The notes under the pieces were generated by a model, which was given only the letters and a program-made list of their open reading frames with translations, did not search any database and was not told the origin of the DNA. From assembly GCF_000966285.1 (NCBI RefSeq), contig NZ_KQ031391.1, positions 4,356,540-4,420,539 of the forward strand: 64,000 nucleotides of DNA, read 5' to 3'. Each line of letters begins with the position of its first letter. Positions within the stretch are counted from its first letter, which is position 1. The stretch comes from Pseudofrankia sp. DC12. Its GTDB lineage: Bacteria; Actinomycetota; Actinomycetes; Frankiales; Frankiaceae. Shown here piece after piece: positions 14,855 through 26,117 of this stretch. A program made the position numbers and the translations under genes.

Positions 14855-15885
14855 GCCGGCCGCACGGGCGGGGGCCGCTGGTCCTCGGTATCGAGACGTC
14901 GTGCGACGAGACCGGCGTCGGACTGGTGCGCGACGGAGCGCTGCTCGCCGACGCGCTGGCCTCGTCGGTGGACGAGCACGCCCGCTACGGGGGCGTCGTC
15001 CCGGAGATCGCCGCCCGGGCACACCTGGAGGCGATGGTCCCGACGATCGAGCGTGCGCTGGCCGCGGCCGGCGCTCGGCCGGCGGACCTCGACGCGGTCG
15101 CCGTGACGGCTGGGCCGGGCCTCGCCGGCGCCCTGCTGGTCGGCGTCGCGGCGGCGAAGGCGTACGCGCTGGCGCTCGGGGTGCCGCTCTACGGCGTGCA
15201 CCACCTGGCCGCCCACGTCGCCGTCGACACCCTCGAACACGGCCCGCTGCCGTCACCGTCGATCGCCCTGCTGGTCTCCGGCGGCCACTCCTCGCTGCTG
15301 CTGGTCGAGGACCTGGCCGCCGTCCCGGTGAAGTCCCTGGGCGCCACCGTCGACGACGCCGCCGGCGAGGCCTACGACAAGGTCGCCCGGCTGCTCGGGA
15401 TGCCGTTCCCCGGTGGCCCGCCGATCGACCGGGCGGCCCGCGACGGCTCGCCGACGATCCCGTTCCCACGTGGCAAGGCGGGCGACGGCACCTTCGACTT
15501 CTCCTTCAGTGGCCTGAAGACGGCCGTCGCTCGCTGGGTGGAGGCGCGGGGCCGGGCCGGTGAGCCGGTGCCCATCGCCGACGTCGCCGCCTCCTTCCAG
15601 GAGGCCGTCGTCGACGTGCTCACCGCGAAGGCGGTCGGCGCGGCGACGGCCCACGGCGTCGACACGATCGTCATCGGCGGTGGCGTTGCCGCGAACAGCC
15701 GGCTGCGCGCGCTGGCGGCCGAACGGTGCTCGGCCGCCGGCATCACGCTGCGCGTCCCGCGCCCTGGCCTGTGCACCGACAACGGCGCCATGGTGGCGGC
15801 GCTCGGTGCCCTTCAGGCCGCGGCCGGTGTCACCCCGTCACCGCTGGATCTACCGGCCTCCTCGACGCTCCCGCTGGGTGTCTGA
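14851..15885 (+). CDS. tsaD: tRNA N6-adenosine threonylcarbamoyltransferase TsaD
   Basis: TsaD transfers the threonylcarbamoyl group to A37 of ANN-decoding tRNAs. The 344-aa protein has the entry motif [14 protein letters not shown], the metal-binding HHLAAH with His118 and His122, the [10 protein letters not shown] phosphate loop, [20 protein letters not shown] and the DNGAMVA end. Length and active site are complete. Its ATG overlaps the rimI stop. The gene ends the t6A unit; the ilvA leader promoter begins within 40 bp of its stop. Confidence 0.96.
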
Positions 15886-15918
15886 CCGGGGTCGCGCGCC
15901 GCGCCGCTGGGTGTCGGT

Positions 15919-15948
15919 TTGACGCGGGCGACTCCGACGGAGCAGGCT
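15919..15948 (+). promoter_or_regulatory. Promoter of the ilvA leader
   Basis: TTGACG (15919-15924) and CAGGCT (15943-15948) are separated by 18 bp, a good -35/-10 arrangement for the housekeeping actinobacterial sigma factor. The expected start is at about 15955, exactly the GTG of the proposed leader peptide. Confidence 0.6.
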
Positions 15949-15954
15949 GGGAAT

Positions 15955-16029
15955 GTGCCGCAGCAGCTCGTGCTTCGTCCGTCCGTGGGCATCGTGCCCC
16001 CGGGCGTCCGGTTCATGGGCATTACCTAG
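15955..16029 (+). CDS. Probable ilvA leader peptide (24 aa)
   Basis: The short frame GTG CCG CAG … ATT ACC TAG encodes MPQQLVLRPSVGIVPPGVRFMGIT. Eight of 24 residues are Val, Leu or Ile and it ends Ile-Thr, the product and substrate side of the pathway served by ilvA. It appears leaderless, since the promoter places the transcript start on its GTG. A 13-bp stem begins at its stop codon and an intrinsic terminator follows, the layout of a ribosome-mediated attenuator. Function is inferred from composition and layout only. Confidence 0.5.
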   Translation: MPQQLVLRPSVGIVPPGVRFMGIT

Positions 16030-16062
16030 GCGCGCGACCGAGCGTTCAGTCGGCCGCGCGCC
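16029..16062 (+). promoter_or_regulatory. Stem-loop at the leader-peptide stop codon
   Basis: GGCGCGCGACCGA (16029-16041) pairs with TCGGCCGCGCGCC (16050-16062) with one mismatch. The left arm overlaps the leader-peptide stop, so a ribosome terminating there would block it. Confidence 0.6.
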
Positions 16063-16063
16063 A

Positions 16064-16096
16064 AGCCTTCCGCCTTCGCGGAGGGCTTTTTGTTTT
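16064..16096 (+). terminator. Intrinsic terminator in the ilvA leader
   Basis: AGCCTTCCGC (16064-16073) and GCGGAGGGCT (16078-16087) form a 10-bp stem with one G-T pair and a CTTC loop, followed by TTTTTGTTTT. It is the only textbook terminator with a strong T-tract in this window and it lies about 50 bp upstream of ilvA, not downstream of a gene. It could also stop read-through from tsaD. Confidence 0.8.
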
Positions 16097-16147
16097 GCCG
16101 CGGCCACGGCCCACTCCAGTGGCCGCCAAGCCACCAGGGAGCCTTGG

Positions 16148-17296
16148 ATGACCCAGCCAGCCGCGACAACGCCGTCGCCGCGAACGCCCGGCAAACCGGG
16201 CGCCACCGTCGGATCCCCGGACGGGCCGACGGACGACGCCGGCGACGGGACTACCACCCGGGCCACGGCCCGGCTGGACGACCTCTCCCCGTCCGAGGTC
16301 GCGGCCCTGATCCGCGCGGTCGACGTCGACGCGGCCGCGGCCACCCTCGCGGGAGTCGCGCTGCGCACCCGGGTCGTAGCGCACCCCGGGCTTGGTCGCC
16401 GGACCGGCGCGCCGATCTGGCTGAAGTGCGAGAACGAGCAGCACACCCGGTCGTTCAAGCTGCGCGGCGCGTACAACCGGGTCGCCCAGGCCGACCCGGC
16501 CCGCCGGGCTCGCGGACTGGTCGCGGCCAGCGCCGGTAACCACGCCCAGGGCGTCGCGTATGCCGCGGCCCGGTTCGGCGTCGACTCGACGATCTTCGTA
16601 CCGGCCGGTGCGAACTCGGTGAAGGTGGCCCGCACGCGACGGTGGGGGGCCCGGGTCGAGCATGTCGACGGTGGGGTCGACGCCGCGCTCGCCGCCGCCG
16701 AGGCGTTCGCCGCCCAGGGCGACCGGCTGATGGTCCACCCGTTCGACGACGCGGCGGTGATCGCCGGTCAGGGGACGGTCGGGCTTGAGCTGATCGAGCA
16801 GGTGCCGGGCCTGCGCAGCGTGGTCGTCGGGGTCGGCGGCGGCGGGCTGGCCGCCGGGATCGCGGTCGCGCTGGCCAGCCACGCCCGCGGCGCCCAGGTA
16901 CGGGTCATCGGCGTGCAGGCCGAGAACGCCTCGGCCTTCGCCGACTCCTTCCACGCCGGCCGGCGCCTCAGCTCGCCCGCCCACACCGTCGCCGACGGGA
17001 TGGCGGTGCGCACCCCCGGCCGCCTCACGCTGGCGCTCGCCGCGTCCCTGCTCGACGACGTGGTCACCGTCGACGACGGCGCGTTCTGGGAGGCGATGGC
17101 GCTGCTGCGGGCGACCGGAGACCACCTCGTCGAGCCGGCCGGTGCCGCCGGGGTGGCCGCGCTGCTGCGCCATCCGGGGCTGGCACAGGGGCCGACGGCC
17201 GTCGTCCTCTCCGGCGGCAACATCGACCTGGCCACCGCCGAGCGCGTCGCGGCCCTGACGGCCGCCGCCACCATTCCCGTCACCCGCACCGCCTGA
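16148..17296 (+). CDS. ilvA: Threonine ammonia-lyase, short form
   Basis: This PLP enzyme deaminates threonine to 2-oxobutanoate, the entry to isoleucine synthesis. The 382-aa protein has the PLP lysine in RSFKLRGAYNR, ASAGNHAQGVAYA, the tetraglycine phosphate loop VVGVGGGGLAAGIA and the LSGGNIDL end. It stops right after the catalytic domain and lacks the C-terminal ACT-like regulatory domain of feedback-inhibited IlvA; about 50 disordered residues precede the catalytic core. ATG at 16148 is chosen because upstream codons belong to the terminator and leader. The attenuator-like leader argues for a biosynthetic role, while the short form resembles catabolic enzymes. Confidence 0.9.
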   Translation: MTQPAATTPSPRTPGKPGATVGSPDGPTDDAGDGTTTRATARLDDLSPSEVAALIRAVDVDAAAATLAGVALRTRVVAHPGLGRRTGAPIWLKCENEQHTRSFKLRGAYNRVAQADPARRARGLVAASAGNHAQGVAYAAARFGVDSTIFVPAGANSVKVARTRRWGARVEHVDGGVDAALAAAEAFAAQGDRLMVHPFDDAAVIAGQGTVGLELIEQVPGLRSVVVGVGGGGLAAGIAVALASHARGAQVRVIGVQAENASAFADSFHAGRRLSSPAHTVADGMAVRTPGRLTLALAASLLDDVVTVDDGAFWEAMALLRATGDHLVEPAGAAGVAALLRHPGLAQGPTAVVLSGGNIDLATAERVAALTAAATIPVTRTA

Positions 17297-25424: not shown

Positions 25425-25823
25425 GATCATGCCCGGACGGTTCGCCGCCGGGACGGGGCACTGTTCGTCGGTTTCACTCCCGCGATCAGCGACAGGAATG
25501 CCAAACGGCTACGCCGCCAGATACGCCGGTGGAGGTTGCATCGGCGCACGGCCGGGACTCTCCAGGACCTGGCAGCGAGAATCAATCCGCTGATCAGGGG
25601 TTGGATCAACTACTACGGTGCGTTTACACCGTCTCGGTTGGCTCCGACCCTCCGCCTGATCGACGCCTACCTGGCGCGATGGCTGCAACGCAAATACAGG
25701 CGGTTCCGACGGCGGTGGCGCCGGTCGCTACGGTTCCTCGCGGAGGTACGTCGCCGCGACCCGGGACTGTTCGCGCACTGGCAGCAACCGCTGGCGGTCG
25801 GTAGGACAGCACGAGCCGGATGA
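25425..25823 (+). pseudogene. ltrA: Group II intron maturase, C-terminal fragment
   Basis: About 130 codons encode the end of a group II intron reverse transcriptase/maturase: GALFVGFTPAIS, then the maturase (domain X) block LQDLAARINPLIRGWINYYG, followed by RLIDAYLARWLQRKY, a basic stretch and GLFAHW. The seven reverse-transcriptase blocks, including the YADD active site, are absent, and no start with a ribosome site precedes the fragment. It therefore cannot be an active protein. TGA at 25821-25823 lies inside the following domain V RNA, as in intact introns. Confidence 0.85.
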
Positions 25824-25885
25824 GTCGAGAGGCTCACGTCCGGATCTGTGGGGGCCGGCGGGTGAGACTCCCGCCGGCTACCCGG
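25425..25885 (+). mobile_element. 3' remnant of a bacterial group II intron
   Basis: Directly after the maturase fragment is a recognisable domain V (25813-25847: GAGCCGGATGAG-TCGAGAGG-CTCACGTCCGGATCT) and a domain VI hairpin (GCCGGCGGG from 25854 pairing with CCCGCCGGC, then CTACCC). Domains I-IV and the 5' part of the ORF are missing. The left break is near 25400-25430; the right end near 25885 is approximate. I saw no flanking inverted repeats or transposase. Confidence 0.85.
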
Positions 25886-26117
25886 CGCCCTCCGCTGGTC
25901 GTAAATCCGCCCCGACCACAACCACCGCAGGGCTGAAACGGCGATCAACGAACGGCAGCCAGGCCCAGGGAGCGGAACGCACCCAAGATCCCGACCCTGG
26001 ACGGGCCTGAACCACCGTCGTCCACGCCCACCTCGATCCAGCGTTGGCGAGGGCGCCAAACGCCCGAGCCGGCGTGACGGGCGGCGGGCGCTCCGCGCCC
26101 GTTCCGCCCGTCACGCC

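Follow-up and report, generated by a model that had tools for sequence, protein, structure and literature searches.

A leader with a conserved isoleucine codon upstream of ilvA in Pseudofrankia sp. DC12, and related leaders of cimA in other actinobacteria, as candidate transcription attenuators

The window analysed here is a stretch of 64,000 nucleotides from Pseudofrankia sp. DC12. Unless stated otherwise, the leader features and ilvA described below lie on its + strand; tsaD ends at 15885, just before the short leader and ilvA. A -35 element, TTGACG (15919-15924), is separated by an 18-base spacer from a -10 element, CAGGCT (15943-15948), and a GTG at 15955 stands seven bases after the latter, where the transcript is expected to start. 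A scan for the sigma-70 consensus found no promoter at this site, and CAGGCT matches TATAAT at two of six positions. Hence, the promoter call rests on conservation: in 26 of 26 loci, including the window, a GTG in frame with the leader follows TTTGAC after 36–37 bases. The promoter elements proposed in the initial annotation, and the GTG at the expected start, are thus present, and the placement of the GTG is suggestive of leaderless translation, as was also proposed. The leader frame (15955-16029) comprises 24 codons, VPQQLVLRPSVGIVPPGVRFMGIT, and the stop codon TAG (16027-16029), which confirms the 24-residue frame with an Ile-Thr end. Its start is kept and its frame open in 26/26 loci, all of which have an ATT codon for isoleucine at the position of 16021-16023. 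ATT is rare in the window, where it accounts for 3 of the 83 isoleucine codons of eight genes.

Hairpin 1 (16029-16062) starts on the G of the stop codon, as annotated, but it is not a clean 13-bp stem: it consists of 12 pairs and one A/C mismatch over 13 positions. Contiguous with it lies an intrinsic terminator (16063-16096), made up of a hairpin of 11 pairs (16063-16088), followed by TTTTTGTTTT, and a T-tract (16087-16096). Whole-window scans yielded 19 terminator-like sites, two of them at the leader; since all the others have 7 pairs or fewer, the claim that this is the only strong terminator of the window is fair. The start codon of ilvA (ATG, 16148) lies about 50 bases past the T-tract, at the distance given in the annotation, and is preceded by a probable Shine-Dalgarno sequence, AGGGAG (16136-16141). 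The gene (16148-17296) encodes a threonine ammonia-lyase-like protein of 382 amino acids.

A DNA search of 58 genomes, including that of the window, matched 26, all of them in the window's family. The leader frame has nine codons in 20 of these loci and 13, 13, 14, 24, 24 and 34 codons in the other six, which all come from the window's genus; the reading frame is always kept. The frames of 24, 24 and 34 codons are those of the window and two close relatives. The nine-codon frames lack the segment at 15970-16014 (approximate limits), an insertion found only in the nearest relatives, which explains the Val/Leu-rich look of the window's frame. Val and Leu codons of the leader are not conserved among the 26 loci. 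The frame ends in M-x-I-T-stop, with Asn for Thr in two loci, and most family members have a single isoleucine codon. Sensing of isoleucine, valine and leucine, as suggested earlier, is therefore supported for isoleucine by the invariant ATT, but not for valine and leucine, whose codons belong to an insertion that 20 of the 26 loci do without. In two members TGG replaces TAG and the stop comes four codons on, inside hairpin 1. Leaders that lack the stop at the hairpin base (L004, L007, L066, L080 and Streptomyces cimA leaders) have another one within a few codons inside hairpin 1, so that a ribosome past the isoleucine codons would enter the hairpin. The leader frames of the nearest relatives exceed the others by in-frame units; in L003 the leader reads as repeated PLG-type pentapeptides, which lengthen the frame without moving the isoleucine codon away from hairpin 1.

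The gene downstream, on the same strand, is ilvA in all 26 loci (tblastn), and in 30 of 30 when four more loci are counted. A model built from 25 of the 26 loci (R1) matched 33 of the 35 genomes of the family, once in each, and gave no match in G010 (63% complete) and G013. The upstream gene, by contrast, varies: it is tsaD in the window, whereas the three relatives examined, including one of the window's genus, have GMP synthase there. Because the element occurs in 33/35 genomes and ilvA follows throughout while the upstream gene changes, gene order indicates that the element belongs to ilvA, the target named in the annotation. A link between tsaD (t6A) and ANN codons was considered and dropped, since the upstream gene differs in relatives.

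Leaders of this kind extend well beyond ilvA. In the class as a whole, R1 had matches in 112 of 393 genomes, those of the window's family among them. Outside the family, 20 loci were retrieved from the 21 strongest matches; in 17 of them the leader stands before cimA, identified by a sequence motif, which led us to reject the view that these weak matches are due to chance. Citramalate synthase (cimA) is the pyruvate entry to isoleucine. Four of four cimA proteins tested, from different families, pass the TIGR00977 cut-off, and the leader frames at the loci outside the family include MTHWMIII, VTRSLIIT and VLSTSIIIN. A second model, R2, built from 22 cross-family sequences, matches at E 0.01 285 of the 393 genomes, from 111 of 137 genera, a count that comes from matches not all inspected and that may include false ones, because two kinds of junk also matched R2. 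In 100 loci spread over families, R2 gave 103 matches, of which four were junk: three on L187, tRNA-like by eye, and one antisense on L072. The genes after the remaining 99 matches are cimA (74), ilvA (8), ilvB (10), leuS (5) and small unknowns (2); most cimA labels rest on the motif, and one of the five leuS fragments is under the cut-off. Family searches resolved L155 as cimA, L177 as acetolactate synthase and two others as small unknown proteins. Thus, the leader is not special to ilvA but widely precedes cimA, with matching leaders at leuS and ilvB. In L076 and L084, an isoleucine leader is followed by a gene for a small stand-alone protein, about 110 residues long. That of L076 had no Pfam or NCBIfam match at the thresholds used, and its resemblance to an ACT-type subunit was judged by eye only.

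The association with cimA was also found in loci picked by protein. Among 80 named cimA loci, the best 80 of at least 587 relatives, R2 matched 53, all upstream of cimA and on its strand, and it matched nowhere else in the 356,682 bases of these loci. The matched loci include Streptomyces, Amycolatopsis, Nonomuraea, Micromonospora, Kribbella, Cellulomonas and some acidimicrobial genomes. The 27 loci without a match comprise 23 metagenome-assembled genomes and four isolates (Nakamurella leprariae, Micrococcales bacterium 31B, Streptomyces lavendofoliae and Microtetraspora glauca); one unmatched locus, L190, lacks upstream DNA. A -10-like hexamer lies 5–9 bases before an in-frame start in 36 of the 53 cimA leaders, compared to 67 of 1506 control ATG/GTG trinucleotides, a contrast that is somewhat generous, since more than one start was accepted for each leader. 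Of the 35 genomes of the window's own family, 34 carry cimA, which passes the cut-off in 33 of them. At ten cimA loci of ten family genomes, R2 with filters off detected no leader (best 7.6 bits); in this family, therefore, the isoleucine leader stands on ilvA instead. The family's cimA genes (L271, L273-L278) have a common upstream segment of their own, near GTGAACCCGTC, GTCGCGCG and CGCGTGACG, that reads as a long hairpin. This segment is not matched by R2 and had no Rfam match up to E 1 in five loci.

The last four codons of the leader fit the gene that follows. Among the 99 R2 matches, they include isoleucine in 74/74 cimA leaders, in 8/8 ilvA leaders and in both leaders of small proteins, whereas the leuS leaders have LLL in 5/5 and the ilvB leaders two or more Val/Leu codons in 10/10, with isoleucine as well in two. 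Likewise, isoleucine is among the last four codons in 53/53 of the named cimA leaders matched by R2. In these 53 leaders, ATT makes up 74 of 97 isoleucine codons at codons 2–3, whereas the cimA genes themselves use it for 41 of 898. Isoleucine codons at positions 1 and 4, by contrast, are ATC in 23 of 24 cases. These isoleucine and ATT counts are biased upward, since R1 and R2 were built from isoleucine leaders; this selection affects part of the codon result, but not the placement before cimA.

Both helices are supported by covariation. In alignment A3, with 22 cross-family rows, 8 of 16 pairs of the two helices show changes on both sides (25 cells compared to 7.9 in shuffles), and in alignment A6, which was fitted to R2, this holds for 12 of 16 pairs (63 cells compared to 12.0). 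For the lower helix of hairpin 1, 2 of 6 pairs vary in this way in A3 and 4 of 6 do so in A6; for the terminator the numbers are 6 of 10 and 8 of 10, respectively. The lowest pairs of hairpin 1, GCGC, are nearly invariant and hence give little information on pairing. Thus, alignment across relatives, proposed earlier as a check on the leader, yielded both a conserved small frame, open at five lengths, and two covarying helices.

Single-sequence folds, by thermodynamic folding only, were made for 152 rows (99 + 53, with some genomes twice). Hairpin 1 and the terminator were both formed in the best fold of 152/152 rows. The gap between them is 0 nt in 129, 1 in 17, 2 in 4 and 5 in 2, and hence 0–1 nt in 146 of 152, although the contact is partly favoured by A-U pairs between the terminator foot and the T-tract. 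Abutting hairpins were found at 105 of 110 leader terminators compared to 7 of 50 other sites, a weak control in which two of the 50 are themselves leaders (L067 and L070, the latter among the seven) and several lie in coding sequence. Mutual exclusion of an antiterminator and the terminator by base pairing was not found in the 152 folds. A column search of A3 for a base-paired antiterminator, which was limited to columns occupied in at least 15 of 22 rows and at least 85% paired, gave only alternatives of 3 pairs, joining the arms of hairpin 1 to the apical CGC/GCG of the terminator, and this candidate was rejected. When the 5' arm of the terminator was paired with the region of hairpin 1, the mean duplex energy was -7.1 kcal/mol, and 58 of 152 duplexes lay at or below -8. 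The absence of a clear antiterminator pairing, named at the outset as the weak point of an attenuator, is thus real and general: the hairpins coexist and abut.

The position of the ribosome, modelled by masking bases, affected hairpin 1 but not the terminator. With 18 bases masked (ribosome at the isoleucine codons) the remaining pairs of hairpin 1 averaged 0.89; with 26 masked (ribosome at the stop) its pairs averaged 0.17, counting zero where none remain. The terminator averaged 0.97 when free, 0.97 with the ribosome stalled at isoleucine and 0.96 with the ribosome at the stop, and never fell below 0.64; no ribosome position tested opened it in any of the 152 rows. Folding with and without a ribosome, proposed earlier as a check, thus gave no switch of the terminator. 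The outcome of masking depends on the footprint length of the ribosome. Hairpin 1 reached -8 kcal/mol in 43 of 53 cimA leaders with 18 bases masked, in 27 with 20 and in 16 with 26, whereas for the ilvA leaders these numbers were 26, 9 and 5 of 26. Its median in the ilvA leaders was -7.1 kcal/mol with about 20 bases masked compared to -4.4 with the ribosome at the stop, and the whole fold of the window was -26.2 compared to -23.6 with 20 and 26 masked, respectively, a gain of only 2.6 kcal/mol. Hence, the modelled hairpin 1 switch is weak for ilvA itself, because its single isoleucine codon calls for about 20 masked bases.

We consider it likely that the leader is an isoleucine-specific, ribosome-mediated transcription attenuator of ilvA, the last step of which may be steric. 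To judge from its sequence, the locus has a conserved short frame before ilvA, end-product codons before the hairpins and an intrinsic terminator before the gene. Because the same arrangement recurs in many actinobacteria, it is probably a built-in isoleucine gauge. This reading draws on the conserved parts, the fit between codons and genes, the two helices and the modelled removal of hairpin 1 by a ribosome at the stop; from these we infer a transcript start on the GTG, stalling upon isoleucine shortage and the sign of the regulation. Of the initial interpretation, the leader frame, the attenuator-like layout and ilvA as a target were retained, while valine and leucine sensing was not, and the class extends beyond ilvA.

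According to this proposal, transcription would start on the GTG and a ribosome would load at the very 5' end of the leader RNA, to translate a short frame with ATT two codons before the stop. With enough charged isoleucine tRNA, the ribosome would reach the stop, which coincides with the 5' arm of hairpin 1 or its edge, and block this hairpin, upon which the terminator would fold and transcription end. When charged isoleucine tRNA is short, the ribosome would wait at ATT just upstream, and hairpin 1 would form at least partly. Since hairpin 1 would form upon stalling and be blocked at the stop, it would occupy the place of the antiterminator. The final step may be steric. RNA 5' of the terminator must presumably thread out beside it, and a rigid joined helix may misfit the exit channel. 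Because the helices touch, a formed hairpin 1 would leave no flexible RNA at the base of the terminator, so that the terminator could not close in the exit channel.

Alternatively, hairpin 1 might serve for pausing or as a protector, like hairpin 1:2 of trp, with the terminator under the control of an unseen antiterminator or of coupling between polymerase and ribosome. The coexistence of hairpin 1 and the terminator in the folds would suit such a role. The protector hairpin of trp contains its regulatory codons, however, whereas here they lie outside hairpin 1, and A3 retained no alternative helix between hairpin 1 and the terminator of more than 3 pairs. In the available part of a study of Corynebacterium glutamicum ilvB, pausing at the first hairpin is argued for (PMC11857589). 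All in all, we regard this explanation as possible but unlikely.

Another explanation, which we consider improbable, is that the leader frame acts on translation of ilvA or stability of its message, with the terminator as a constant brake. In the window's family, a conserved region between the terminator and the ribosome site offers a third hairpin, A (16100-16107) with B (16119-16126), paired in 99% of cells, and, next to the ribosome site of ilvA, an alternative helix of B and C (16130-16135) that spans 16119-16135 and is paired in 98% of cells. Both pairings show one-sided changes only, with covariation in the family no better than shuffles, and 118 bases separate the end of the leader frame from ilvA. 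Leaderless polycysteine frames of mycobacteria, which reportedly are amino-acid-specific and precede biosynthetic genes, have been termed attenuators in a title, and would offer a parallel for this explanation. Within 16100-16135, segment B can pair with either A or C, and this layout is kept in the family. Several best folds also paired the transcript 5' end with segment A; this candidate was dropped by eye, because the start codon is constant where A varies.

Threonine or methionine might be the signal, with or instead of isoleucine, as the frame of most family members has Thr as its last codon and Met three codons earlier. Yet Asn replaces Thr in two of the 26 loci, and Met takes its position in 13 of the 53 named cimA leaders compared to isoleucine in 53/53, so that this option seems very unlikely. 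A chance frame between an ordinary promoter and a terminator of the tsaD operon, which the window alone, with tsaD ending just upstream, could not exclude, can practically be dismissed, as the element travels with ilvA while the upstream gene changes, the frame is kept at all five lengths and the helices covary across families.

The nearest experimental precedent for the step by which hairpin 1 would counter the terminator is, in the literature as far as accessible, ilvBNC of C. glutamicum. Like this system and the ilvB-II motif, as described in part of the sources, our leader combines a short frame that contains branched-chain codons with two hairpins ahead of a U-tract. In C. glutamicum, a mutational study, available in part, found that antiterminator and terminator have only a GCC trinucleotide in common (PMC11857589; PMC10272879). 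The present leader differs in that the hairpins have no base in common, the codons are for isoleucine and the genes are ilvA and cimA. A similar decision between ribosome positions is described for Mycobacterium tuberculosis ilvB1, where, according to the accessible text, a ribosome at the stop masks the antiterminator and a stall at the regulatory codons frees it (PMC13236596). In contrast to our leader, however, that antiterminator is said to prevent the terminator, and it controls ilvB1NC with LVVI codons. In Streptomyces, the leuS, trpE, trpS and ilvB leaders are described, in the sections available, as leaderless frames followed by one or more hairpins and sometimes a U-rich stretch (PMC8079986; PMC1262725). 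R2 itself matches leuS and ilvB members of this group; in contrast to our loci, none of the eight leaders in the accessible part of the Streptomyces lividans TK24 study is at cimA or ilvA (PMC8079986). The leaderless mycobacterial frames differ in coding for cysteine, and the cys leaders lack obvious terminators in the account available (PMC1262725). According to the same partial source, changes of candidate codons at Streptomyces coelicolor ilvB had no effect (PMC1262725), which counts against an attenuator reading.

Relative to known attenuators of the trp/his/ilv kind, the isoleucine leader of ilvA and cimA is probably new, judging by the literature and Rfam searched. In the parts of the sources available, the actinobacterial leaders described are those of ilvB, leuA, leuS, trp, cys and others, not cimA or ilvA (PMC1262725; PMC8079986). 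Among the matches listed in open-licence literature, we found none that describes an actinobacterial leader of cimA or ilvA, which is not proof of absence; 'citramalate synthase' and 'leader peptide' co-occurred in one paper which, by its title, concerns a methanogen. No curated RNA family in Rfam 15, in which the presence of ilvB-II was not established, matched the window's element at gathering score; below this score the best match was sbcD on the minus strand (25.4 bits compared to 40). T-box was not among the eight Rfam matches up to E 10 in 15800-16300, and at the 20 loci outside the family only a tRNA matched.

If our reading is correct, many actinobacteria, antibiotic producers included, would monitor isoleucine through a sensor dedicated to it, placed at the committed step of its synthesis. 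The reading might also bear on an old puzzle, namely that attenuator-like actinobacterial leaders such as Streptomyces ilvB and leuA appear, in the accounts available, non-classical when mutated (PMC1262725). Classical expectations would be misleading if hairpin and terminator did no more than touch. The leader class is compact, and its natural codon variants would offer different specificities. Tentatively, and in a form that may well not hold, one could see here a general, re-codable attenuator of actinobacteria, in which a very short leaderless peptide controls a hairpin, this hairpin obstructs the terminator next to it through contact instead of common base pairs, and the last four codons set the target (isoleucine for cimA and ilvA, leucine for leuS, valine and leucine for ilvB).

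The ilvA protein of the window has a PALP domain only (Pfam PF00291), as have the aligned stretches of ilvA from five relatives, and its best NCBIfam matches are threonine ammonia-lyases, all under the curated cut-offs. As predicted from its sequence, such a PALP-only enzyme would fit control through expression rather than allostery. A second ilvA-like gene in the same genome (L032) is 39% identical to that of the window over residues 52-378 of the latter. Elsewhere in the window, a group II catalytic intron was matched by Rfam at 25811-25886 on the + strand, with 50.7 bits.
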